Of a stretch of DNA of 64,000 bases, positions 21,124 through 50,896 are shown one piece after another. The stretch covers positions 8,684,687 through 8,748,686 of the forward strand of contig NC_082598.1 of NCBI RefSeq assembly GCF_030936135.1. Reading direction: 5' to 3'. The notes below the pieces were generated by a model. The model saw only the letters and a list, made by a program, of their open reading frames with translations. It searched no databases and was not told where the DNA came from. Each line of letters opens with the position of its first letter. Position 1 is the first letter of the stretch. This DNA comes from Gavia stellata (Eukaryota; Chordata; Aves; Gaviiformes; Gaviidae). A program made the position numbers and the translations under genes.

Positions 21124-24100
21124 TTAATTCACCCATACACACACTGGCTGCAGATCCCAGGTTTCTTCAGTAGGAGGATCCCAGGCATGCAGTGCTATCT
21201 TCCATAGCCTGATCTGCTGGTCCCAGGATCTACGGCTGTACTTCTTAAATTTGTTGGGAGTTCTAGGATGAACTCCTGGTATTCGCTGATTCCTGTAGGT
21301 ACAAAGTAACATTTATTATTCCAGAACATGATTTTCATTCTTAAAAAACAATCCTCAGTCCATCAGACCACACAGGTATTGGTGGCCTAATAAATAAAAT
21401 TTTCATATTTTGAAACACTTAACTGAAATGCATATATTCTAAAACACTGTCAAAAACAGACCACACAAGCAACAACTAAGAAAAACACACTGAGTCATAC
21501 CAGAGATTCATCCAGTCCAACACTCTGACAGCTGCCAAGAGCAGATCCCTACTGCCCATGGACAAATATGAAACAGAAGCAGCATAACTCATACCCCTAC
21601 AACAGTATCCTAGCCTCCAACTACTTCTATCTCAGTTTTTCCAAGTCAGGTGCAGTTTCTTTGTATTTAGTATTGTACTGAGTCTGGCTGGGATGGAGTT
21701 GACTTCCTTCATAGCAGTCCCTGTAATGCTGTGTTTTGGATTTATAGCTAAAACAGTGCCGATAACACACTAATTTTTGGCTACTGCTGAACACTGCTTG
21801 CACAGTTTCAAGGCCTTCTCTTCTTCCCCACTCTGACCTGCAGCCACTAAGTTGAGGGTGGACATGAAGGTGAGAGGGGAAATCGCTGGGACAGCTGACT
21901 CGAGTTACCCAAAGAGATATTCCACAACATATAATGTCACGCACAGCAATAAAAACGAGGGCAGAGGAAGAAGGGGAGGTGTCTTCCCAAGTAGTCACTG
22001 CTCAGAGACTGCCAGGGCACCAGTGCGCTTGTGTGAGGTAGTGAGCGATTGCATTTGCATCACTTGCTTTTTCCCTCCTTTCTTTCCTTCACCTATTAAA
22101 CTGCCCTTATGTCAATCCATCAGTTTTCCCGCTTTTGCTCTTCCTATTCTTTCCAATCCCACTGGGGAGAGGGAGGGAGAGAGCAGAGCTTGGCTGCTGG
22201 CAGGGGTCAAGCCACAAGTTATCTTCCATCAACTTTTATTTCACTATTGTCTGTGCATTATTACCACAGGCATTGCTGTAATTCTAAATGGTATTTGCCT
22301 TTTCGGAGCACAGAAAAACGAAGCACCTCCACTCTCTGGGTAAAACGTAAATGATACACCTTTCTACTGAATGTGCACTGGGCAAATACTGTAACAATGC
22401 TGTCTGGGATCACCCCACAGCTGGAAGTGCTATTTCTCAGATGGTATCCCAAACCCAGATCCTGCCTATCAGAGGTTACTGGAGGGCTAACTCACACCGT
22501 ATCTTCAATACAAAATAATCCTGTTTATAGTCGTACCATACTGGAGTCAGCTCTATGCCTGGGGGGAAGCATATTACAATAATATTTCAAATCATACCTT
22601 GGTCTCAGGTATACCAGCTTCACAGATCAATGTACTTAGCCCTAACATTTTTTGCAAGATAAACAGATCCTTGCTAAGAAATAGTATTATAAACTACCCT
22701 GTTAAAATGCCATCCAGCACATTTTTTTTTTTAAAGTTCATCCCATGTTTTTTCTGAACTTTCTTCTCACCCTTCCCTATTCTCCACCTATTATTTAACT
22801 GATCACAGCACAGCTATGCAAGTGCCAGGCATCACCGTAAGACTGGCTGCAGTCCTGCCATTGATGACAAAGCTACAAGCAAAATTACAATTCACAAAGC
22901 AATCCAAGATTCTTTGCAGAAAAAAGTGTTACTGCAGATGTGACCATGATATTGTGTGATAGCTGTAATCATTTATGATATCTGTTGTTGATTTTTAGTC
23001 ATCTAGTCTTATCTTTCGAGTTTTGCTCAACAAAAAGCTTGCAGTGTCCACTGCACTTGGCGGGCAATTTTCACAACAGACTCTTACAGGCAGAATGCAT
23101 AGAAAGCTGGCAATGATAAGTAGCAAGCCATATTTAGAAAAACACCTATAAAAAAACCCCTCAAAACAAACAAAAAAGAATACAAATGCATACCCACACA
23201 TTAGTACAGACTAGCTTCTGAATCTTGACAGCTCTGCAGTAAGCAGAGGGGGCTGGCTAAGAAATCTTGACTTAAGTGCCACAATTCACAGATTCTGAAG
23301 CCCAATATGGAATGACAGAGAAAGCAAGAAATTCAGGTTTTGATTTGTTAGTTACTGATGAATCATTGAAGACTGGTTTCCCTTACCAATAGTTAAATGC
23401 AAGGCTTTATTCAGTCCTCATTCAAAGCTGTCATTTCCTGGTGTCAATTAACTTCACACTGGCCTACCAACACAGTCACCAAAACCATCACAGGGAGCTG
23501 ATTCATACAGAATTTAGTAAAAGTATATTTGCTACTAGCAACGGGGATACACAAAAGTAACATTTAGCTTTAAATTTTCCCTACCTAAATTTGCTCGTAT
23601 GCAGAAAATACCTGGCTTCTCTTTGATAAAAATCAATTTATTTAGGTTTTCTTCACTTACTGTTTATATAATTTTAAGAGAACTAAAGCTGTGTGCTGAT
23701 CTACACACGTCAGGAACAAATAAGATTTTATTTGGCAATGTGCAACATAGTGCAACTTACTTTGGAACTTCTTTAATGTATCTGTCATATGCAAGGGTAT
23801 TCTTTCCAAAATTGATCTGTTTTTGTCTTCTCCTCAGAACCACTTCATCTGTTTCCCTTTCAGCTGGATTAGCAGAATCACTTGAAACAGAACTTAAAAA
23901 TAAAAATTAGAATTAAGTTGAAAAGAACCTTAATAACTTTACAACAAGTTATATAAACACATACTCTAGAACTGCTTGTATTCTCGCTCTGATAGACAGT
24001 AAGCACAACTCTTCACTAGTTTACAGAAGTGAAAGTTGCGCTAACCAAATGAATCACTACAAGAGTAGGTTTTGCAAGTTCATGCCATTGCTCAGGTTTC

Positions 24101-34747: not shown

Positions 34748-37700
34748 TCATCGTATTATGCAAACATCTAAAATGCAAAATTTGGCTCGGCAAGTCGGAC
34801 AAGGCACTTGGCTCGACAGCCAGGTCTCTGGGTGCTGCTGATCCTGTCGGCTGGCAAACCATTTGCCCATGCAGGTGAGGCACCACATGGGACGACAGTA
34901 GCATTGCTGGCATTCCCCTTCGTTTGGCTCCTGGCAGTTCTTGATAAGCTTGATGTTAGCGATAGTCTGCATACACCCTATGCATGGCTCCAGCTCCTAA
35001 AGGAGAAGAAAAACGTCAAAATCATGAACTGCACAGAATGGTTTCTGTTACTGCTCTTCAAAGGCTTTTAGAAAATTATCTGCGCACAAGCATAGCAGGA
35101 ACCTGAGTTGGGTAGAGCCTCAAGGCAGAACTGCCCCACCAGAAGATACCAAATGGTTTCAATCTCCAGAGCCCTGTTTTACAGAACACCCTCTAATGAA
35201 TGAGAACAAAGTATCTCTTTAAACAGAAAACCCAGAACTGCTGCATGAGACTGATTAAACAAAAATAACTGAAAATAAACATTCTTTCTCTCTCTGAAGA
35301 GCTCTGTTTCCAGAGCACCGCAGCCAGAGCAAGGTGAGCCATCTTTATCATTCAGACATACTATTTTTCAAAAAACATACCAATATAAAGTAAGAAAAAT
35401 AAACAAAGCAAACAGTTCTTACCACTTACTACAGCAAATGGCTGTTCCTATCTTCCATCTTTATAAGTAACAGAGGAAATCGAGGCTCTACTGAACACAG
35501 TGGGCACTCATCTTGAAGGACCAGAGATTTACTTAATTTTTCTTTGATAATATTGGAATAATTTATATTTCCCGACTGTTAATTATGCCACATGAACTTG
35601 CAGTTGCATATAGGGAGATCATCTTGCTATGAAATGTTTTACAATTAATAAACAATAATTAGCATTTCCCATGTGTCTTCCTGTCAAAGCTCTCCAAGAA
35701 CTTGACAAAGTTCAGAAGACAACACAGGCATGGAGACCTGAATCCTATTCATACTGCTGTCAGTGTAACAAAAAGCAGCTCTGCTTTGTGGTCTCTAGTT
35801 CCCACCTCCAGTGTCTCCTCCCTTGTCAGCTCAAGCATCTGTTGAACCACACTGGCAGCTTGACTGTGGAGTGGATCATCTTTCTTTGTCTCTTTTCACC
35901 CCCATCATTTCCCCCAATCAGGTTCACCACAGACAGTGTCTTGTGTCAACATGGGGATGTGGAGAGAGCAGGAAGCAGAACTACTCCTTTCAGAAGCTGT
36001 ATCAGCTTTAACTTGCGAAATTAGGGCTTATCATAGTATTTAGGCAGGAAAAACTGTAGCACGGAAAGGTTAACTAACTTTTTCAATTTATTCATGGAAC
36101 TTCAGAATAGGGAAAAATCCCATGTTGTATTTTTAATGTCCGTATCATAATTTCTGATGTTATTTATCACTCAATGTCAAACCAAAATTCAGTAGCTTAG
36201 CTGACACTTAAATGTGTCAGAAATTAAAAGCCCTGCAAGAAAGCAACTCTCTCAAATAAATAGTATCTTCTCTTTATTTTGAACATCTCTTTTCACTGTA
36301 CTCTGGCACTGCAATCAGAACGCGCAATCACATTAGGTGCAGACATATCTGATCCAGTTTTATTTTAGCTAGTTCATGTAACCATACAGTGAAGACACCA
36401 TATAAGCTGCATGATACTACCAAAGATATCAAGTACTCACTCCATTGGCTGGAACATCTGACACAGACTCACTGCAAGGTCACCAGAACTAGTGTAATTA
36501 GTTACCTCTGGTACATTGAACAGTGCTCTAGTCACACTTCCGATTGCAGCACAGGTATAATAATGACCAGGTCTCCACAAATATTGCTGAAGGAAGGACT
36601 CCATGGTGTTATTTACAATTAAAGCAAGCCCTAATTAAGAATCATTAATTTATTTCAGCAGAAGATCCAGCAAAACCTGGCTGTCTAGAAAAGCAAGCTG
36701 TAATGGAGCAATATGCCAAAAGAACAGTAACGAGAGCTGTGATTCTAGCTCCCCATAAACTTTCTGGAAATGTAACCTCATTTCCAAATGTTTTCAAGTA
36801 AAATTTTTATGGAAATGATTATAGGGGACTTTCTTCCATTCTGCTATTTCTCATGTCTCAAAAATGTAATGTTCACAATACAGTTCATCTCCTCATAGAA
36901 GGAAAAGAAGCAGCAGCCAGAACTACATTTATTACATGTTTACTGAAATGGAACGTGATCTCTTAAGACAGATGGACCCACCCTGACTGAATGAACAGCA
37001 CTTTGGTTCAGGCATCACCAACAAGGAGGCCTGACTGAAGTCAGCTCTGCTGTGCAGACCTTGAGAAATTGTGCTGGCCACATCTTCTCAGGAAGTTAAG
37101 GAATTTCAGCTATGTCTTATCACAAGTTAACGGTGCCAGCCTGTGCTGGAGCTAGATGAAACTAAAACTGCTACAGCTGCACACGCTCCCCAAAGGGGAG
37201 TCTGACTACAAGTCAATCACTTTATGCTATAAATATCTGTCACACCCCTAAGCCCATTGAGCTCTCCTGCATGGCAGTGGGCTGCATGGCAGTGATCTCC
37301 CCTTGGGTAGGATGCGTCTCAAGGTTACTCCTTGAGGTTGAGAGATCCCTTACCTGGCATCTGTTATCTACAGCGAGGTAAGTGATGTTTTATATTAGAT
37401 CTAAAGCACATTGTATATAAGCTAGCTTAATTATTACAAATGCAGTAAGTAGTAGTGTGTTTGATTGCCATTTAATTACAATTTAATTATTGTTTAATTA
37501 GCATTTAATAATAATTTAATAAGTATTATTTAATCATTTTTTAATTATCACTTAATCATTGTTTAATAAAACCTTTTGGTTAACCTCACAACTTCTAGTA
37601 ATTCACCTGCAACAAAAACTGGCATAGTCAGCAGGATAGCAGGTTCAATCACTGACTACTTACGGGGGCACGGACTTAGCCCTTCACTGAAGTTTTCAGA

Positions 37701-40700
37701 AGATTTGGTACATGAAAATTAGGATAATTGGAATAAGACAGAGGAGCAGTTAAACCTCACAAGAGGGAAAAGAAAAGGGAATAATATGCAAAATGTTGGG
37801 AACACGTTTGGAAGCAGCCTGTCAGTATAAGGAATGCAAGGAAAGGGAAATGCAAATGTTACAAGATGAGGTTGAACAAAGAAAGCAACAAGAAATGCTG
37901 TTATCTCTGCAAATAGACCAATTGCTGAAAGAACTGGGGGAGGGAAAAGAGAAATGAAGGATGGTAGAGGATGAACTAGAATTCATGATTACTTGGGCCT
38001 GCAAGCCCCCAGATCCTGTAAAAAATCTGTAAACTAATCATATCACCGGAAGACTGGGACAGAGATATTTGGGAGGACCCTGATCCAGAACTTAGCGAGG
38101 CGAGTGAATTAGATGAATCAGAATTTAAGGTAGCCCCTCATATTAAGACTAAGGTATCTGCTGGATCCCAAGGGGGCAACCAGAAAAACATCACAAGGAC
38201 CATTTCATGGGACCCCCTTCAGCTGGCCAGTCTGCAAGAAAAATACAAGTGGAAGCCTGGCAAGAGCGAGACTGAGTATCTGTGGCGCGTCTCCTTAACT
38301 GAAGGAGACCATATTATGTTAGATCAAGGCGAAGCGGATGGCTTTTGGGGACCAGGAGTGTTCTTGAAGGAGGGACCAGACCCTAACACTGAGCGACACT
38401 CTGTCACGCGATGAATGGCATATTGGGCAGGGGGCACAGACCTTCGGGATAGAGGGGAGCCCACTGCTATACAAGTAAGATCATTAAGCAAACTTTCTAC
38501 TGCCATTACAAAAGCAGCCTGCCTTCAGGCTATGAACAACAGGCGTGCACATGGTAGTTACCCTATTGCTGCCCCTGTAGACCCTCCGGCTATGAAACCA
38601 CTAATAAGGGGAGCCCCTGCTATCTTAAAACCATACCTCATTGCAAAAAGGGATGAAATAAGACAAAACATAGAGCATAACACCCAGGAGGGTCAGGACA
38701 GTGAACTGTGCCTCTGATCCATCCTGACCTGGGCAGAACTGTTGCATGGCATTGTCAGTCATAGCTGAGAGATGGGGTGGGATGAACCGACATCAACTGG
38801 GCAATCCCGAGCTGAAGCAGACACCTTCCCCGACCTCATAAACGTCCTGGTAAGGTACTGGACCCCCAAAAAAGGCATAATGAACTATGGAGAAAAGCCT
38901 TAGTGCTAGGCATACCTCAGGTAGCCATACAGGGCCAACCGACGGGGACTATACTTAGTCTGATCAAGGCTTTCCAAAAACAAGGGGTATCAGGGAATCC
39001 AGAACAAACCAAACAACCGTCTGCCCCCAAAGACCCTGCAAATAACCCTTTTAGACCTCTTAGGGAGGAATTGCAAACCTTGCAAAGAGTAAGTCCTAGA
39101 CAGCAACTTGGGCTGCCTGTCCAGAGGATTGAAATTTATCAATGGGATAACACAGACAGCCCTCACATTTATGTCCCAATCAGCCCCCAAAGACAGCTAG
39201 TAAATTTTTTATTTGACACAGAAGCTCAAATTTCAGTAACTTCAAGTTTGAATGCCCAAAGAATTTACGTTAAGCCCGGTCAATGGAGGGTTAAAATAAC
39301 AGGATTTACCAGCAAAAGTAAAACATGGCCCATAGCTAAAATAAACTTGTTATTGCCGGGACAGAAAATGATATCAAGGCAACAATTAGCAGTAGTTTCA
39401 GGGAAAGAAAATGTGTTAGGTGTTGATGTATTACAAGGATGAGTTTGGAAATTGCCAGGCGGTGGTGTTTGGTTTTTGGCTGCCTGGAGTGTCCTTGGTT
39501 AGCTGAGTGAAAATTAGCAGCTGTTCACAGGCATCAGTGAACTGCTGTAGTTTGCTTACTGCGAGCTGCACCCACGCTGCCTGACTCGAAAATAATTAAC
39601 TTCCCTCAGTATGCTAGCTCTGCTGCTGCCCGGACGGGTATTGCGGAGGTCATAGGTGACCTAGAAAAACAGACACTTTATCTCCCGGATGCACTCCCCA
39701 TATAATTCCCCAGTGTGGCCAGTTAAAAAAACAGACAGGAGGTTGCACCTAATCATAGACTATAGAAAGTTAAATGCAAACACTGGCCCTCTCATGGCCA
39801 CCATCCAGGGTGCCGCTCACCCCTGGATAGTGGTACTAAATGTAAAAGATATGGTTTTTTATGGTGCCGCTGCAGGAGGAGGATAAAAAAAGTTTGCTTT
39901 TACCTAGGATGGGATACAATTTACTTTTAATAGACTTCCTCAGGGCTATAAGCATTCACCCACTATAGCTCGGTGGAGCTAAACATTGTATTAGCGCTAG
40001 GTGGATATATCCTAGCTATTTCTCAAACATATATAACTTATGGTCCTTTTCTGGGTTAAGTAAAGGTGGCCTGTCCACCTAGGTAAGGCCAGTAATTGGT
40101 GTCTGCAGGAAAGATGACGCATCATGATACTGAGTCCCTTTTCATCCCTACATACTATCAGGCCTCTCCCACCTCTCCCCTTCACTCCTTATTGGGGTCC
40201 AGCTCCTGCCTTAGAAAAAAAATAATTTATTTACAGTCAATTAAGATTTCACAATAGCTCTTGCTTGGCTCATGAATATATGTTGTGGTGGGTTGACCTT
40301 GACTGGACACCAGGTGCCCACCAAGTTGCTCTGTCATTCCCCTCTTCAGCGGAATAGGGGAGGGAGAAAATAAGACGGGAAAAAACCTCATGGGTCAAGA
40401 TAAAGGCAGGTTAATAAAACGAAAGCAAAGGCTGCATGCGGAAGCAAAGGAATATGAAAGATTTATTCCCTACTTCCCATCAGCAGGTGATGTCCAGCCA
40501 CCTCCCGGGAAGTAGGGCTTCAGTACATGTAGGCGGTTGCTTGGGAAGACAAATGTTGTAATAACGAATGCCCCCCCACTTTCTCTTGGCTTTTATTGCT
40601 GAGCAGACATCATATGGTATGGAATATCCCTTTGGTCAGTTTGGGTCAGCTGTCCTGGCTATGTCCCCTCCCAAGATCTTGCCCACCCCCCAGCCTACTG

Positions 40701-43700
40701 GTGAGGGGGGAATGTTGGAGAGACGGCCTAGATGCTGTGTGAGCACTGCTCAGCAGTGGCCAAAACACTGGTGTGTTATCAACACCTTTCTAGCTACCAA
40801 TACAAAACACAGCGCTATGAGGGCTGCTATAGGGAAAATTAACTCCATCTCAGCCAGACCCAATACATATGTACAATGTCCATAGATGTAAATAAAGCCC
40901 AATACAAAAGACAACGGGCAACCTTCTCTTGCCAGAAACTTGAGAGTCCTAATTCTGCTAGTAGTACATAATTGCCCTCATACCACTTCCCTCGTGCACC
41001 TATAGGAATCATAGAATGGGTTAGGTTGGAAGGGACCTCCAGCGATCATCTAGACCAACCCCGCCCGCAATGCGCAGGGACGTCTTCAACTAGACCAAGT
41101 TGCTCAGAGCCCTGTCCAATCCGACCTTGAATGTTTCCAGGGATGGGGCATCTACCACCTCTCTGGGCAACCTGGGCCAGTGTTTCACCACCCTCATAGT
41201 AAAAATTCTTCCTTATATCTAGTCTAAATCTACCTTCTTTTAGTTTAAAACTATTACCTCTTGTCCTTTCACAACAGGCCCTACTAAAAAGTTTGTCCCC
41301 ATCTTTCTTATATTTCCTAACTTTCTCAGCCACTGCATCAGCAAGTGATGCTGGGGTACTCTCATATCTAACAGTTAAGTCCACCACAAAAGCCTGAACT
41401 CCCTTGACAAATATCAGGTCAGGTTTATATAATTAATTTTGATGATCTTTTAAAAGAAGTGGCTCCTGAAATATTACCCATTCTTTCTTTTTAGCTTCCT
41501 CTGCCAACAGTTCACATAGTTGCTTGTTTCTCTTATTCTAGCATCTTGAACCACAGGGCAGTATCGAATAATATGTCAGCAAGTTCCTCTCTGCTTGACA
41601 ATGCCAACAGCTCTTAATTTGAGTGTCCTGCCTACCCCTTGCCAAATACTCTCTCGTGAGGTAGGCATTAGCTCTTAACTGTAATGCAGTAATGAGCTTT
41701 CTGCGAGGAATGTCCCTGTAATATTCAATCCCTAATTTATCCTTTCCAAAGTTAGTAATCCCATGGCCCTGGGACAGCAACTTGATCCAATTCAAAAATT
41801 CCTGCTTTTGCCAGTCACAGGGTCTCAGAAAGATGACCTTTGGAGTGGACATCTCCCATTCCAAGACTGGTTCCTCACCACTCACAACTTCTGAGATGAC
41901 CATGACTGCTCTGGGGTCCCAAATAGATGGATTTTTCTCTTCATCCCCACCTGCCGCAATCCATAGCTTTTCAAACTCTTTCTCTATCCCTTCTTCCCAC
42001 ACAACAGATCTTATAGTGTCATCTGATGACTGAGCAATTTGGTGCAGCCTACAGGCCTGCACACTAGGAATTAGTCCAGAGAGTCTGGTAATACCCAGCC
42101 CTTCATCCCAAGTGCTGGAATACAAAATCGCATCACGAGTACTTGCAGGTAGATGTAACTAATCCTTGACGGCTGCTTGAATTGCCAAATCAAGGGTCTG
42201 TAGTTACATGGCTTTCACATAGGCTTGGTCTGCTAAGTAAATCAATTGTGAGATAGTATATCCCTTTAAGATGTCAACTTTCTGAAATGGCTTCAGTGGA
42301 GCCTGCCCAATCCACCTTAAGCATTTGTTCAGTTTTTTTCTAACTTAGATATTCCAATCCATGGGTCTATACAAAGTCCCAGCTATTTTTCCAAACTACC
42401 TGGGTCAATCATATTGAGGGGTGTGCCATTTATTGTCCATGCCGGACAGCCATCGACCATGTAAGAGTCCTTCGTAGGCTGGATGTAAAATACATGGCAC
42501 TTCTCCCCTTGTGTTTTGAGGCCTGTCAGATTGCAAAAGGCCTCTAAAATGGCAACATTTTTCTGCATTCCATCCCAGGATTCAATTAATAGGATCAAGT
42601 TGTTTGCAGAGGCCACTAGGCAGATATATCCTAGCTACTAACTAAAAGGGGTAACCAGTCTGGAGTGACCCTGCCGAGACTTGTGTTATTTTCTCTTTCC
42701 AGGAACGGTACCCGGAATGATACTGGAATGCCTCCGTTGGAGATCAGATTGGTCATCAGAGGAATATTTATCCTTCTTGCAGGAGTAATCATTGCCAATG
42801 TGGACCAGATCCAGTCTACACCTCAAAAAGCCCAGTGCACAGGTTGGAGGCCCTCACTTCTTTTATTTGTGCTAATCCATATGGTAAATGTAGTAATTTC
42901 TGCATCATACATGTTTAAAATTGATGGAAGTACAGGAATATTGGGAGAACCAGCAAAAAAACTAACAATGACAATTACTGGTAATCACACAATTGTAAAA
43001 GCAACTAAGAGTCGCCTTATTTCTGCTACACCATGTGACAGAATCTCTATTGAATATAACGTGACAAATTATTCATAGAATCATAGAATTGTTTAGGTTG
43101 GAAAAGACCTTTAAGATCATCAAGTCCAACTGTTAACCTAGCACTGCTAAGTCCACCACTAAACCATGTCCCTAAGTGCCTCATACACATTCTTCTAAAT
43201 ACCTCCAGGGATGGTGACTCAGCCATGCCCCTGGGCAGCCCGTTCCAATGCCTGACAACCCTTTCAGTGAAGAAATTTTTCCTAATATCCAATCTAAACA
43301 TCCCCTGATGCAACTTGCAGCTATTTCCTCTTGTCCTATCACTTGTCACTTCGGAGAAGAGACCAGCACCCACGTCTCTGCAACCCCCTTTCAGGTAGTT
43401 GTAGAGAGCGATAAGGTCTCCTCTCAGCCTCCTCTTCCCCAGGCTAAACAACCCCAGCTCTCTCAACTGCAACTCCTAAGACTTGTGCTCCAGACCCCTC
43501 ACCAGCTTCATTGCCCTTCTCTGGACACGCTCCAGCACCTCAATGTCCTTCTTGTAGTGAGGGGCCCAAAACTGAACACAGCATTCAAGGTGCAGCCTCA
43601 CCAGGGCCGAGTACAGGGGCACGATCACCTCCCTGCTCCTGCTGGCTGCGCCGTTTCTGATACAGGCCAGGATGCCGTTGGCCTTCTTGGCCACCTGGGC

Positions 43701-46700
43701 ACACTGCTGGCTCATATCCAGCCGGCTGTTGATCAACAGCCCCAGGTCCTTTTCCACTGGGCAGCTTTCCAGCCACTCGTCCCCCAGCCTGTAGCGTTGC
43801 ATGGGGTTGTTGTGACCCAAGTGTAGGACTTCACACTTGGCCCTGTTAAAACCTCATATAATTGGCCTCAGCCCATCGATCCAGCCTGTCCAGATCCCTC
43901 TGCAGAGCCTTCCGACCTTCCAGCAGATCAATACACCTGCCCAACTTGGTGTCGTCTGCAAACTTGCTGAGGGAGCACTCAATCCCCTCATCCAGATCAT
44001 CGATAAATATATTAAACAAGACCGGCCCCAAAACTGAGCCCTGGGGAACACCACTTGTGACTGGCTGCCAACTGGATTTCACTCCATTCACCGCAACTCT
44101 TTGGGCCTGGCTATCCAGCCAGATTTTTACTCAGCAAAGAGTGCGCCCATCCAAGGCATAAGCAGTCAGTTTCTCCAGGAGAATGCTGTGGGAAATGGTG
44201 TCAAAGACTTTACTGAAGTCTAGGTAAACAACATCCACAGCCTTTCCCTTATCCACTAAGTGGGTCACTTTGTCGTAAAAAGAAATCAGGTTAGTCAGGC
44301 AGGACCTGCCTTTCATAAACCCATGCTGACTGGGCCTGATCACCTGGTTGTCCTGTACGTGCCATGTGATGGCACTCAAGATGATCTGCTCCATAACCTT
44401 CCCTGTCACCAAGGTCAGACTGACAGGCCTGTAGTTCCCTGGATCCTCCTTCCGGCCCTTCTTGAAGACAGGTGTCACATTTGTTTATATCCAGTCAACT
44501 GGGACCTCCCCGGTTAGCCAGGACTGCTGGTAGACGATGGAAAGTGGCTTGGTGAGCACTTCTAGCAGCTCCCTCAGTACCCTTGGGTGGATCCCATATG
44601 GTCCCATAGACTTGTGGATGTCTAAGTGGTGTAGCAGGTCACTAACCATTTCCCCTTGGATTGTGGGGGCTTCGTTCTGCTCCCTGTCCCTATCTTCCAG
44701 CTCAGGGAGCTGGGTATCCACAGAACAACTGGTCTTACTGTTAAAGACTGAAGCAAAGAAAGCATTAAATACCTCAGCCTTTCCCTCATCCTTCGTCACT
44801 GTGTTGCCTACTGCGTCCAGTAAAGGACGAAGATTCTCCTTAGCCCTCCTGTTGTTGCTAATGTATTTATAGAAACATTTTTTGTTGCCTTTTATGGCTG
44901 TCGCCAGGTTAAGTTCTAGTTGGGCTTTGGCCCTTCTAATTTCCTCCCTGTAAAACCTCACAACATCCTTGCAGTCTTCCTGAGTTGCCTGCACCTTCTT
45001 CCAAAGGTCATAAACTCTCTTCTTTTTCCTGAGTTCAATCCAAAGCTCTCTCTTCAGCCAGGCCGGTCTTCTTCCCCACCAGCTTGTCTTCCGGCACATG
45101 GGGACGGCCTGCTCCTGTGCCTTTAAGGCTTCCTTCTTGAAGAGTGTCCAGCCTTCCTGGACTCCTTTGCCTTTCAGGACTGCCTCCCAAGGGACTCTGT
45201 CCACCAGGCTCCTAAACAGGCCAAAGTCAGCCCTCCAGCTGACTGAAAGGCAAACACCTACATGTGTCAGAAAGATAAATCTAACTCAATCAAAAAGCAG
45301 AGTAGGCTGCCCCTCATGCCCCAATTTTATAATTAGTTTCCTCTTTAATGACACAACTATAGAAGCAGTGTGCCTGTGGACAGATAAAGGGAGAGACAGT
45401 GAAAATGGACTATCCTTAAAGGTCACGCTAAAGTCTACTCCCAGACCTCACACTATACCAACAACTACCCCTACTACCTGTCAACCCACTCCCTATCCTA
45501 TTACTCCCACAACCGACCAAGCTACATATCCACACATTTCTACAGTTGGACCCTACACTGTTAAATGTACAGGACAGCAACAAGTCATATTTAACCTGTC
45601 CTGGTCCCGGAAAGGGGTAGAACTGTCCATGTCTGCTGATCTGTAAAAGAACCCTTTGTGAAGACTTAACTGTTGATAGAAATTTTACCAATAATGTGTC
45701 CAATCAACCAAATGTATGTGTTTGTAACTTTGTAAACATTACTGGATGCAACTTTAATTACAGAGCCCCAGTGACCTCATACAGACTGTTAAAGGAAAAC
45801 TACACGCTGTATCAAGACCGTTTACCTTCCCCCATCAGAATGAACTTGATGCTCTTTCACAAGCTACTGAAACATGAAGACTTCAGGCCTTATTACAAAA
45901 AGTACAACAACAAAGCAAAAACACATTAATAACTGTACATCATGACGGAGAAGAAATACACTGTATAGTAGGAAGAGTGAAGAAGGATGTGCAACACCAC
46001 TGGTGGGAAACCCTATTAGGATGGTCTCCAACAGCAACAGGTGTATTGTACGCCATGTTACATCCTGTGGTAATGTTTGCCCTTCTGGTAGTTTATATTG
46101 CTGTTATTGTTTTTTTATATATTCAAGTCTGGGTTTTGGCCCGATCAGTATATCTCATTGCAAAATGTACAGAGTATCTTGCTACTGATTGTGTGGAACT
46201 ATCTTATAATTAACCTTAATTAATATTGTATTTATCGCTTAATCGTCCAGTAGACAACATGATGCTATTACCACCTCATATTTATAGTACAGAGGCAAGA
46301 GGTGACCGTACCACCACTCTGTGAAGTAAAGTGATTTGACTGGAGTCACTGGGTGGAGTGTGACAGATGGACCCACCCTGACTGAATGAACAGCACTTTG
46401 GTTCAGGCATCACCAACAAGGAGGCCTGACTGAAGTCAGCTCTGCTGTGCAGACCTTGAGAAATTGTGCTGGCCATATCTTCTCAGGAAGTTAAGGAATT
46501 TCAGCTATGTCTTATCACGAGTTAACGGTGCCAGCCTGTGCTGGAGCTAGATGAAGCTAAAACTGCTACAGCTGCACACGCTCCCCAAAGGGGAGTCTGA
46601 CTACAAGTCAATCACTTTATGCTATAAATATCTGTCACGCCCCTAAGCCCATTGAGCTCTCCTGCATGGCAGTGGGCTGCATGGCAGTGATCTTCCCCTT

Positions 46701-49700
46701 GGGTAGGATGCTTCTCAAGGTTACTCCTTGAGGTTGAGAGATCCCTTACCTGGCATCTGTTATCTACAGCGAGGTAAGTGACATTTTGTATTAGATCTAA
46801 AGCACATTGTATACAAGCTAGCTTAATTATTACAAATGCAGTAAGTAGTAGAGTGTTTGACTGCCATTTAATAATTGTTTAATTACAATTTAATTACCAT
46901 TAATAATCTTTGTTTAATAATTTTCATTCAATCATTTTTTAATCAGTGTTTAATAAAACCTTTTGGTTAACCCCACAATGATGACTTCTCTTAGTAATTT
47001 GCCTGTGACAGCCCTTAGTAAACAGTTATCAATTACACAGTAGTCACAGGCTCACCTATATTGAAAAGTATAATTATTACAGTGGATAGAAAGTCTCACC
47101 TGAGTGCTTGGAACAGGGTATGTCTGGTTAATTTCCACCAGAGATGTAAAGGTTTCTAGAAACAAATCACTAAGGCTTTGATGGATCACAACATTAGCTG
47201 CATTGCTGATGGGAGCACGGAGCTTTTCTCGGAGCTCCCCATACTCTGCAGAGTTCAACCTGAAGAAGAAAAGATGGAACAAAGTGTTATCTTGATTATC
47301 CATTCAAATACCTTGATAGTACATTGCAGAGGTTAACATCAGAGAAGTGAATCCACAGAAAAGCTATTTAGGTTGGCACATACTAGTCAGAGTAAATACA
47401 TGGTGAGCATTTTGCTTTCTTTTGCTGTTTAGTTGTTGGTGGTTTTGACAAAACTTAGACAACAGAACACGCTGTCCTCCTTCATATCTGTGTCAGACTG
47501 CTGACAGGATATGCCAGAGATTAGCTAAAATATCATAAAAAAATAAATGAAGGCTTTTGAAGTAATCAGCATGAACAAAAGCAGTGCAGGTACATAAATC
47601 ATGCATGAACTGTAAAATATTGCATGCACAGTTTCTGTCCACCTTTTTAATGCCTATTTACTTACACCATATCTAAATTCTAGTTTATAAACTCCTGAGG
47701 ACAGAGATTAAGAGTTATATCATGTGGCACATATCACATAGTGATATAGCACATGTAAGTATTAGAAGAATGTCAATCAGTATCAGTTTCTGTGACTTCA
47801 TGATACAATTTCAGATAAAACCTGAAATCTCAAAGGTTACAAACAGCTGCTGAATGTGACTTACACTTTGATTTAAGGCTGTAACAAGCTGCATTTCACA
47901 CTAGGTTGCTTCTGCTAAAGTAAGTCTCTCCAAGCGAGGCCCACAGACCTCAAGTGGTACATGAGACCTTGTGCAGATCCTGTAGTGACACATGACTGTT
48001 GTTACCACTTTTTAATGTAACAGTTCTGAACTGTAGATTCAGAACTCCCCAGCTTGATGTTTCCACTCATTAAACAGCTTTCATGGAGAAGCCCTGGGAA
48101 CGTCGCCCTGAAATGCCTCGTTCTTCCTGCCACTTGCTGAGCTCCCCGAGCCCACTGGAGCCCAGTACAATGCAACGCTGGCTTAGCTTTAGCTCCCAGT
48201 GGTCTCGATTGTTTTAACTACTATAGGACAATGTTGCTTGTTAACCGATAATATCTGTGCAAATAACAGACACCTTTGTATCCAGAGGAAAAATTCACCT
48301 TGAACATGCAGGGAAACTTGGCCTTGCCTACACAAAAGCATTTTTCTTTCAAAAACATCCCACTGTATCTAATTCTGATTCTGGATATATATAATGATCC
48401 CATATCCTTAATAGGGGAAATTTGTCCTGTGGCACTTTTCTTAAATCCTGTATGACTGCATTCTAGCAGAGATTTGCTATTTCTGACACATCTTATTACA
48501 AGAACTTTTAAATACTCTTCTCAGTGCTGTTCTGTTCAGCCACAAAATAAAATTTTGGGATTTGGATTTTTTTCCCCTAATAGGAATTGCCAAAGAAGCC
48601 ATGATTTTCTCAGCTGGGGATGTAGTTTTATAACTCAGGAACTGAAACACTTACAGAAGAAAATCATTAGTTGTTTAATACTTACTTGGTCACCACTCTC
48701 ACAGGTCTACGAAAGTCTCCCCTTTTCTTAGGATTGTCACGCTTACCTTAACGAGAGTTAAGGTAACTTAACTCAGAACCTCTCGTTCTGAGCTCTCTTC
48801 ACCTGGATATCTAACACAATCACCTCTGTACCTTCCTCATACTTGCCAGGACCCCTCTGCTCACCTACAAGTCTGGTGATCTGCCTACTTTTAGTTACCT
48901 AGTAAATAAATGCTGCTGACACACAACTTTGCAGCAAACAGACACCCAAATGCGTTTTCAAAGATATAGTTGTAGGAGCACCAGCATGGCTCTGTGTACT
49001 CCTTTTAATGACACAATGACAACAAAGACTTTAGCACTTGTACTTTTGCCTAGCTACACAGAGAGACTGCTGAAAAAATACACGAGTCCTTGGAAAACAA
49101 GCCCTAACAGTTCACAGCACGTCTGCTATGATTTACTGTTACAAGAATGCATAAATCAGAAATGGACCAAAATTACTTCCTTGCTTTAAGGGCCGTTAGC
49201 TTGCAGCAGCTCTGTGAGAACTCTTCTGAGCAGCGATGGAATTATGAGCCACCTTTCACCTAAGTTTTCCCAGTTACTTCTTTCGGCATCCAGCACAATC
49301 CTCTTCCTAAGAATGAATCAAACAGAGCAGTCCCTCTGTTTAACCATTGTGCATTCAATACCATAGTTTCCAAACTTTTTTTTCACTGCGCTGCATGGCA
49401 GAACTGCACAGAGCCTCTCTGAACACCAGGCAGGGAGAAAAATGGGTAGGGATGAGACCCAAGGAGTCTTCAGATCTGCCACAAAAGCACTCCATTAGCA
49501 CTATCAAATAGCACATATGTAACATAACAGGGTAGTTGTTTTACCGTATATCAAATGCCTTCACGTAGGGATTAATACTGGCAACACGGATGGTGAGGAA
49601 CTGCACAGGCATATTTGAGTCTGGGGTGAGTTCATGCTGTCTGGAGTCTGTCACTGTCAGATGAATGTCCTGCTGCTGAGCAACGTGTAAACAGTAGGTG

Positions 49701-50896
49701 GTCACTTTAATCACCCACGTGTCTGTAACAATAACCCTCGCTCCTGGTGCTCCGGTAGCAAATTTGTCGATTCTCCTAAATTCTGTATTGATGGAAGAAG
49801 CTACTGCCCTCCAACCTGACTGTGGGAGAGCATGAACAGCGAGTGTTCGGGCTAACGGATGATTATTCCAACCTTTCCGTGACCAGTAATATGCCAGGGC
49901 GCTGGTGACTGCTGGAAAGAGAACAGCGAAGAAGAAGAAAGTTTTCCATCCTTTTGAAGCCAGGTAGAAAAAACAAAGATGTTTTTCAGGTGCAGCAAAG
50001 CACATACCAAGGTAATAACCTGCAAGGAAGAAGACATACTTTCAGAAAGCAATTAAGTACATGCATAAACACATACCCCTGACTCATATAGTTATCTAAC
50101 CAGTGAGCTCACCTCCAGGGAGCTGTTGTACTTCTGGATGATAAGTCAAATTCAAGCCTCTTGTCCTAAGCAATCTGAGGTAAATTCTTACTTGTCACTG
50201 AATTTTACCATAATTATGTAGCTAAATGAAGCCGATTTGAATTTGCAGGTTAAATAAAATTGCCTGTAAGATGACACTTACTTTTAGCGGAATTGTATGG
50301 CTAAAGGAAGCTGATTTGAATTTGCTGGTTAAATAAAATGCTATTCCTTTGTAATTGCATGTACTCCGATGCAGCTAACTAGTTATAAAGCTTAGGGTGC
50401 ACATTACAAAGAAGCTTGAGAGATACTAAAACACTGTATTTCCCAGATGTATACCGTAACCTGCTTCACCCACACCTGCGTGCACCCCACATGCAGACAC
50501 TGCTGAGGAACCCCCTCGCTCCCGCCCGGCCGGCGATGACGCCGGGCACAGCAGGTCCCCGAGTGCAGGCTCACCCCGCCTGCGGGTTTGCCTGTCACAC
50601 TCGCCAGGCTGACGGCTGCCGTCTCCCCCCGGTGACTTGCCCGTGGGGACCCCCGCCCGGGCCCTCCCACCCGCCGCCGGCCGGGGCTCACCCAGGGGCA
50701 GGAGGGAGTGAGCCAGCAGCGTGCCGGTGCTGCGCCGCAGGTGGTACTGCACGAAGGCCGCGTCCTCGCTGCCCAGCCAGGCGGCCAGCAGGCTCTGCAC
50801 CGTCAGCCCCGCCGAGCGCACCTCGTCGGGCGGGAAGACGAAGCAGACGGCAAACACCAGGTAGGCCAGCGTGAAGGTCACCGCCGGGCTCTCCAT
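34748..50896 (-). CDS. TMEM129: TMEM129, ER membrane E3 ubiquitin ligase, 4 exons
   Basis: TMEM129 is an ER-resident E3 ligase of ER-associated degradation, known as the ligase hijacked by cytomegalovirus US11 to destroy MHC class I. Exons: 50692-50896, 49545-50019, 47100-47259, 34748-34996. They total 1089 nt, giving 362 aa, the same length as the human protein, with phases 1, 2 and 0 at the junctions. The start [19 protein letters not shown] matches human. Hydrophobic segments lie at about residues 7-27, 57-77 and 95-115. The middle holds the conserved [19 protein letters not shown] and [11 protein letters not shown]. The last exon encodes the atypical C-terminal [43 protein letters not shown]. 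Intron 3 (34997-47099) is about 12 kb and filled with nested retroelements. The gene is divergent from TACC3. Confidence 0.97.
36966..37614 (+). repeat. 5' LTR of the HERV-I-like element
   Basis: Pairs with 46361-47010. It contains a TATA-like GCTATAAATATC at about 37228, a duplicated GCATGGCAGTG motif, and near the 3' end an AT-rich array of TTTAAT-type units running into TTTAATAAAACC, a polyadenylation signal. Confidence 0.88.
37615..39441 (+). other. ERV leader, gag- and protease-like remnant
   Basis: Plus-strand remnants between the 5' LTR and pol. Gag-like sequence lies at about 37800-38720 and a protease-like region at about 39150-39440 ([12 protein letters not shown], retroviral aspartic-protease context). 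Treated as a broken fossil. Confidence 0.6.
39685..39996 (+). other. ERV reverse-transcriptase remnant
   Basis: Plus-strand pieces matching the fingers/palm part of retroviral RT ([32 protein letters not shown]). The NANTGPL and QGYKHSP wording is typical of HERV-I-like elements. The remnant ends close to where the R2 element inserted. Confidence 0.75.
39997..40018. repeat. R2 target-site duplication, left copy
   Basis: A 22-bp sequence (CTAGG, then TGGATATATC, then CTAGCTA) that recurs at 42616-42637 with 20 of 22 bases identical. The two copies bracket the R2 element exactly. The motif is nearly palindromic. Confidence 0.75.
40284..40867 (-). mobile_element. Solo LTR, avian ERVK type, nested in R2
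   Basis: Minus-strand LTR starting TGTATTGGGTCTGGCTGAGA and ending CAACCCACCACA. It has the avian ERVK-type landmarks GATAACACACCAG and GGCCACTGCTGAGCAGTG and is related to the LTR at 21674-22216. A 5-bp duplication TATGT sits exactly outside both ends (40279-40283 and 40868-40872). It interrupts the R2 coding end: R2 reads SMDIV on one side and [11 protein letters not shown] on the other. Confidence 0.88.
41007..41285 (-). mobile_element. CR1 LINE 3' fragment nested in R2
   Basis: A short CR1 3' end on the minus strand ([34 protein letters not shown]; 3' terminus ATTCTATGATTC at 41007). It lies between R2 endonuclease residues [10 protein letters not shown] and GARGKWYEG, so it inserted into R2 coding sequence. 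About 20 R2 residues expected between those points are missing. The subfamily differs from the CR1 copies at 25.2 and 43.1 kb. Confidence 0.88.
42616..42637. repeat. R2 target-site duplication, right copy
   Basis: Second copy of the 22-bp repeat (CTAGG, CAGATATATC, CTAGCTA), adjoining the truncated 5' end of R2. It differs from the left copy at two positions. Confidence 0.75.
42690..46212 (+). other. ERV envelope-like remnant, split by a CR1
   Basis: Envelope-like sequence lies at about 42690-43075 and again at about 45245-46212. The second part ends with a transmembrane-subunit tail ([20 protein letters not shown] followed by a long hydrophobic segment). The CR1 copy at 43076-45243 lies between. 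Broken fossil. Confidence 0.65.
43076..45243 (-). mobile_element. CR1 LINE, 2.2 kb, 5'-truncated
   Basis: Minus-strand CR1 ORF2 from the linker before RT to the 3' end, in five successive open pieces. 44485-45204 (239 codons) has [20 protein letters not shown] and [18 protein letters not shown]. 44131-44478 has [18 protein letters not shown] and [19 protein letters not shown]. 43846-44091 has [18 protein letters not shown] and the RT core FADDTKLG. Then come 43476-43820 and 43047-43472. The 3' tail ends with the GATTCTATGA-type CR1 terminus at about 43076. A few frameshifts and one stop separate the pieces. Inserted into the ERV envelope region. Confidence 0.95.
46361..47010 (+). repeat. 3' LTR of the HERV-I-like element
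   Basis: Begins TGACAGATGG and ends CCTGTGACA, giving TG...CA ends. It aligns with the 5' LTR throughout and has the same TATA-like and polyadenylation motifs. The AT-rich TTTAAT array differs most between the copies. Confidence 0.88.
50187..50340. repeat. Diverged tandem direct repeat
   Basis: Two units of about 65-75 bp follow each other (50187-50262 and 50277-50340). Both share GATTTGAATTTGC, GGTTAAATAAAAT and GCTAAA(T/G)GAAGC. They lie in TMEM129 intron 1. No known family recognised. Confidence 0.65.

Follow-up and report, generated by a model that had tools for sequence, protein, structure and literature searches.

In most species, the zebra finch and the white-throated sparrow among them, the R2 retrotransposon is reported to be confined to its site in the ribosomal DNA (rDNA; PMC11371274). 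The 64,000-nucleotide stretch of the Gavia stellata genome analysed here, referred to as the window (C5:8684687-8748686, in an assembly of 1.32 Gb and 1,185 contigs), raises the question of how a copy of such an element came to lie in an endogenous retrovirus within an intron of TMEM129. The answer that we consider very probable is a germline off-target event, in which an avian R2 ribonucleoprotein used target-primed reverse transcription to insert this copy outside the ribosomal genes. This answer is based on the following observations: the R2 identity of the copy, its 3' terminus, the bases TAGC that follow it, a duplication at its borders, an empty site in a paralogous provirus, and the recurrence of the 3' signature at some of the other R2 copies outside rDNA (hereafter, strays).

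An avian R2 copy and its borders

Minus-strand positions 40019-42615, which lie between two 22-bp repeats, represent the 3' portion of an avian R2. When its translated pieces were searched against solved structures (Protein Data Bank, PDB), three R2 chains were the only matches at E <0.01; 9nl3_A and 9dou_A were the best, followed by 9nl2_A, which we take to be the turtle R2 of PMC12180492. Chain 9dou_A is labelled R2Tg, i.e., the zebra finch R2 (PMC12222951). By tblastn, five pieces align to R2Tg residues 650-1159 with 56–71% identity (54/80 identical residues at 650-729, 26/41 at 749-789, 114/193 at 808-997, 30/42 at 1050-1091 and 27/48 at 1112-1159). An earlier reading made from the letters alone (the sequence-only reading) had assigned these protein pieces to R2, had proposed this translated comparison and had noted a C-terminal ARAIVKS; the assignment agrees with both searches, and the ARAIVKS tail with its stop codon was located at 40264-40241. 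Another clade of long interspersed nuclear elements was considered as the source of the pieces and set aside; R2 was the one clade of the restriction-like endonuclease type in the comparison. Pfam gave no match for four R2-bearing pieces, Rfam gave nothing over 39000-43700 but a sub-threshold CRISPR model, and a protein search with a 206-aa R2 piece, which found 11 relatives, cannot decide the clade. The R2 features, with reverse transcriptase abbreviated as RT, restriction-like endonuclease as RLE and untranslated region as UTR, are as follows:

42616..42637, minus strand: target-site duplication on the 5' side of R2, starting with TAGC in R2 orientation (20/22 to 39997-40018)
41307..42615, minus strand: R2 coding remnant, from an RT FADD-like motif to the RLE motif LYKPDL (R2Tg 650-1091)
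40868..41001, minus strand: R2 C-terminal coding remnant (R2Tg 1112-1159, 56% identity; PDB E 8.5e-11)
40241..40283, minus strand: R2 C-terminal tail ARAIVKS and stop TAA, from the sequence
40019..40240, minus strand: R2 3' UTR of 222 nt with GAAAAG hinge, finishing at the R2 3' terminus (primer match and terminal alignment)
39997..40018, minus strand: target-site duplication on the 3' side of R2, starting with TAGC (20/22 to 42616-42637)

The domains in 41307-42615 (RT motif, thumb, zinc knuckle and RLE) are named as we presume them to be; the pieces within it are 67.5, 63, 59 and 71% identical to R2Tg, with PDB E-values of 2e-64, 6e-34, 6e-9 and 6e-11. Once nested inserts are subtracted, R2 proper amounts to ~1,742 bp. 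The copy begins in the RT region, where its complementary DNA (cDNA) would have stopped, the three N-terminal zinc fingers and the Myb domain being missing through 5' truncation, and the reading frame is interrupted by stops and frameshifts, for which reason the copy is dead. Judged by its sequence, though not by its site, the element is an ordinary avian R2.

The letters of an R2Tg 3'-UTR primer and the junction of R2Tg to 28S are printed in PMC12222951. This primer matches 24 of 25 bases at 40070-40046, the runner-up place in the window matching 17, and the junction alignment reaches the R2 terminus and continues through TAGC. Beyond TAGC, 28S reads TAGCCAAATG and the window reads TAGCTAGGAT. 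Two further copies in this genome share 86–87% identity with the stretch 40019-40283.

The two 22-mers differ at two adjacent bases only (TG vs. CA). The bounding repeat and its 20/22 identity, described in the sequence-only reading, were confirmed, and an origin by chance was set aside: in 396 pairs of 100-bp stretches drawn at random from the window, the highest 22-base match reached 18, and the composition-based probability of the border repeats, with borders fixed, is 2e-10. No third copy of the 22-mer above 16/22 was found in the window. The copy at 39997-40018 is itself an imperfect inverted repeat (CTAGG...CCTAG). TAGC at the repeat start corresponds to the first four 28S bases past the canonical R2 site, and it belongs to the target, since the 5'-side copy of the repeat starts with TAGC too; the chance of an exact TAGC is 0.0033 per site. 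Upstream, 3/7 bases match 28S at -25 to -19, T at -20 is present, and CCCCTTTTAGTTAG is also seen. A five-feature site score picked the window site among 127,920 positions; with thresholds set post hoc, it was not counted.

The statement of the sequence-only reading that no 28S sequence is seen at either edge stands in the main. A comparison of the window with the 28S sequence gave only chance-level matches of 11–15 nt (E at least 0.7), and Rfam at gathering scores found no rRNA in the window. The part that does not stand concerns the repeat start, which reads TAGC as 28S does; the flanks are proviral, and TAGC alone is in common with the 28S target site.

In the genome, 17 matches to the right proviral flank were counted, the window's own among them, and 14 of the 16 others were compared. 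One of these, L011, is a related provirus that spans the insertion point without R2, with the flanks and one 22-mer-like stretch contiguous; 86 of 100 aligned bases across the site are identical, and the alignment scores 129, whereas 250 shuffles reached 31 at most. The proviral join at this point therefore predates R2. An R2-free relative carrying both 22-mers had been named beforehand as evidence against an insertion; L011, a paralogue, shows one, and no second 22-mer-like stretch at 14/17 or better was found in its 3155 bp. This empty site is paralogous and imperfect. Viral contigs, scanned for either the empty site or the R2 tail, returned nothing. As a guess, the TG/CA difference between the repeats could reflect a single CpG that decayed on different strands; L011 carries TG at these bases, which speaks neither for this idea nor against it.

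R2 copies elsewhere in the genome

The genome was searched with the 3' tail (at least 17 matches) and with RLE-region protein (at least 31 matches); both searches score the best candidates only, and the counts of R2 copies are therefore lower bounds. At least 12 non-28S copies have a readable 3' terminus, the window's included (at least 11 others). The five bases after the R2 terminus are:

C5 (window): TAGCT
C3:100.65M: TAGCC
C44:38.24M: TAGCC
C2:7.05M: TAGCC
C19:5.15M: TAGCC
C3:57.59M: TAGTG
C2:16.05M: TAGAC
C1:28.06M: TAAGC
C4:51.26M: TAACA
C32:0.33M: CAGCT
C1:110.46M: CAGAA
C22:5.68M: ATACA

Exact TAGC follows the terminus in 5/12 of these copies (binomial probability 3e-10), and TAG in 7/12. 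At positions +1 to +12, the numbers of copies out of 12 that match 28S are 9, 11, 9, 8, 6, 4, 5, 1, 3, 2, 3 and 3; the likeness reaches background by about +8, the average match from +13 to +45 being 24%. Termini were set by local alignment, and those of the most decayed copies (C32, C22 and C1:28.06M) may be off by 1–2 bases. Outside the 12 are C1:28.76M, C2:40.98M, C10, C17:12.27M and C20, which have no readable 3' end (C10, C17 and C20 as viewed in 1.5-kb flanks, C1:28.76M and C2:40.98M with 2.5 kb more), together with C17:17.45M, whose tail is incomplete, and pieces L048-L051, found on contigs C854, C245 and C1002.

Beside the 3' end, 28S is kept at no fewer than five R2 loci, i.e., at least two on C854 and those on C245, C1002 and C1:27.85M; the C854, C245 and C1002 loci are alike at the junction. 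Four scored 28S-flanked loci match 28S at 36–37 of the 40 positions from +6 to +45, compared with 5/40 for the window copy, and one C854 copy is followed by 169 bases that match 28S at 94%. The copies on C854, C245 and C1002 (L032-L035) resemble degenerate rDNA units on unplaced contigs; at one of them, no upstream 28S was seen in 3 kb more, and weaker R2-like pieces (L048-L050) lie 4.6 kb off. On a large contig, L069 (C1:27.85M) consists of a lone R2 3' end and then 28S-like sequence for at least 45 bases, and is probably a dispersed rDNA-derived copy.

The C2:16.05M stray is 87–91% identical to a 28S-flanked C854 copy, the R2 pieces >60 bp of other copies being 65–83% identical. Leakage is therefore favoured for C2:16.05M; the other strays are more distant and older.

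A long duplication was also found at C3:100.65M. It measures ~51 bp (52 vs. 51 bases, 45/51 aligned bases identical), starts with TAGCC, adjoins the R2 5' edge and scores 67 against a null maximum of 24. With duplications in 2/12 strays, long duplications are therefore one outcome and not the rule, and the variable 5' junctions of engineered R2 (PMC11371274) agree with such an occasional outcome. Two further candidates were rejected as not above shuffles: the C32 candidate (11/12) is separated from the R2 edge by ~130 bp, and the C2:7M candidate (10/12) falls in a stretch not shown to be R2. In addition, C22 gave a marginal match away from the junction (score 25 vs. 24), and C1:28.06M an 8/9 match 72 bases off the R2 edge.

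Probable off-target insertion and its alternatives

In the proposed course of events, the R2 protein would have made its nick immediately ahead of TAGC in the endogenous retrovirus, on the strand opposite to the R2 copy. The exposed primer could have paired with UAGC following R2 in a 28S co-transcript, or could simply have supported initiation at the terminus; reverse transcription would have started at the R2 3' terminus, and the cDNA would have halted in the RT region, leaving the 5' truncation. The 22-bp duplication calls for a second-strand cut 22 bp downstream, which R2 may have made in a different placement, or which may have arisen during host repair. We infer the R2 protein as the agent, the pairing of the primer and the second-strand cutter.

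Off-targets of engineered R2Tg (PMC11371274, PMC12222951) have in common with the present copy a non-rDNA site and, at the 3' junction, homology to 4 nt of downstream 28S; unlike them, this is a native element and a natural germline insertion, with a duplication readable in the assembly. In human cells, R2Tg off-targets show 4–5 nt of donor 3' homology downstream, and further a match 19–25 bp upstream, T at -20 and a T/C-rich and then a T/A-rich stretch (PMC12222951), and off-target sites share little beyond the primer-complementary sequence (PMC11371274). With zebra-finch R2 (R2Tg/TaGu, A-clade), the window copy shares the protein sequence, the GAAAAG-hinge 3'-UTR tail and the 3' terminus, although it is dead, 5'-truncated, outside rDNA and bordered by a 22-bp duplication. 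Non-rDNA R2 has been described in five of the surveyed Drosophila species, and R1 strays with both junctions have 2–14-bp duplications (PMC2718515); these are likewise non-28S copies of rDNA-specific elements, compared with which the bird R2 duplications measure 22 and ~51 bp. Among the papers listed by searches of open-licence literature, none was seen on natural avian R2 insertions with duplications or a TAGC rule. What is new lies in where the copy sits, in its duplication and in the TAGC pattern across the genome.

Going by the edges of the window copy and of several strays, the R2 machinery appears to have landed elsewhere on occasion, in many cases where the DNA has a few bases in common with the normal target. 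A broader proposition, which we regard as evenly poised, is that avian R2 leaked from rDNA repeatedly in evolution and left a lasting fossil record, with sites set mainly by 4–5-base primer complementarity and with a second-strand cut 22–52 bp downstream being possible, a geometry unused in rDNA. Stray copies, unlike rDNA copies, should escape homogenisation by rDNA turnover. The natural strays show germline traces of off-target R2 insertion, agree with the 4–5-nt rule from human cells, and make the specificity, second-strand cutting and age of R2 testable in other bird genomes. Avian R2 proteins are under development as gene-insertion tools owing to their rDNA specificity (PMC11371274).

Several points weigh against off-target insertion by R2. 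In rDNA, the second nick lies 2 bp upstream of the first (PMC12180492), and not 22 bp downstream as needed here. Exact TAGC is missing in 7/12 strays, with 28S matches down to 2/5 at C1:110M and 1/5 at C22; position -20 is A at C3:100.65M, unlike T in the window; and a simple fold of the 3' tail is no stabler than shuffles (z -0.55). Duplications were seen in 2/12 strays only, and in none of the other ten, whose 5' edges are partly unfixed: C44, C22, C4:51M and C1:28.06M have a visible R2 edge and no duplication, the 5' edge of C19 adjoins an apparent CR1 3' end, and at C2:7M, C3:57M, C2:16M, C32 and C1:110M nothing rose above shuffles in the DNA compared. As for the empty site, the L011 stretch is without 4 of the 22 bases and matches 14/18 at the others, with TGGC in place of TAGC; the other 13 compared relatives gave no clear alignment across the site (scores 19–61, the highest on the right side only).

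It is possible, though unlikely, that the strays derive not from leakage of rDNA R2 but from an R2 sublineage of this bird with lost target specificity. At least 12 non-28S copies exist, and non-specific R2-like families have been published (R2NS of planarian and liver fluke, PMC5035012; PMC7650587; sponges, PMC13188248), the R2NS families being likewise R2 relatives without 28S flanks. However, whereas an R2NS family has lost its specificity, 28S-flanked copies, perhaps of the same sublineage as the strays, exist here and TAGC is kept at 5/12 strays; this enrichment points to a 28S-derived tail or a target preference, and the closeness of C2:16.05M to a 28S-flanked C854 copy looks like leakage from the rDNA lineage.

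That other retrotransposon machinery, e.g., CR1, copied R2 RNA in trans is highly improbable: CR1-like copies do lie nearby, but no CR1-type 3' end was seen at the R2 3' junction, which consists of the R2 terminus and then TAGC and recurs at other loci. Slightly less probable still is that recombination brought a piece of interrupted rDNA to this place, with its 28S flanks lost or decayed. Bird R2 with fragmented 28S or non-rRNA flanks has been published and interpreted as remnants (Kojima et al., PMC5035012), and C2:7.05M keeps nine bases of 28S, with 17/40 matches at +6 to +45, and such an origin may apply at that locus. At the window copy, the border duplication and the paralogous empty site stand against such a move, as does the low likeness of its flank to 28S (5/40) next to the loci that kept theirs; the preference of the sequence-only reading for target-primed insertion over translocated rDNA is thereby supported. 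Finally, we give hardly any credence to the 22-bp repeats being a pre-existing direct repeat of the provirus, since, despite the imperfect inverted repeat that the 22-mer holds, the window has no third copy above 16/22 and L011 a single 22-mer-like stretch.

Nested insertions and the host provirus

The remaining features lie within R2 or belong to the host provirus with its long terminal repeats (LTRs):

41002..41272, minus strand: CR1-like 3' fragment in R2 (aligns to a CR1-like copy at 43075-43342)
40284..40867, no strand assigned: nested LTR-like repeat TG...CA of 584 bp (second copy inverted at 21661-22240)
36967..37609, plus strand: host-provirus 5' LTR, as far as aligned (identical to the 3' LTR at 602/631 aligned bases)
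46362..47005, plus strand: host-provirus 3' LTR, as far as aligned with the 5' LTR

In the sequence-only reading, R2 extended over the whole of 40019-42615. R2 remnants are indeed spread over this interval, but the CR1-like fragment and the LTR-like insert, unnoticed earlier, are nested inside it; both were inserted later than R2. The names CR1 and LTR for these inserts are presumed. The LTR-like insert is flanked by the 5-bp duplication TATGT (40279-40283 and 40868-40872), and the boundary stretch 41273-41306, beside the CR1-like fragment, is without base-by-base assignment. A longer CR1-like copy, at 43077-45285, lies in the proviral env-like region and has an RVT_1 remnant at 44131-44484 (Pfam).

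The location of R2 in an endogenous retrovirus of a TMEM129 intron, as first read from the sequence, is upheld by the paired LTRs and by four tblastn exon matches (50896-50690, 50020-49547, 47288-47100 and 34996-34751), obtained with the human protein; Pfam confirmed both pieces submitted (49547-50020 and 34751-34996). The provirus sits in the last TMEM129 intron, antisense to the gene, and R2 is in sense orientation with TMEM129. Being nested in the provirus, R2 should postdate it. By eye, the provirus has RT-like and env-like parts; Pfam gave protease matches below the cut-off only, and no match for the RT-like piece at 39665-39886. The switch from RT-like to env-like sequence, also judged by eye, falls at the R2 site (39900-40018 / 42638-43078), and much of pol seems to be missing; this loss predates R2, because L011 has the same join. 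The aligned end of the 3' LTR (47005) lies ~95 bp from the TMEM129 exon match at 47288-47100.

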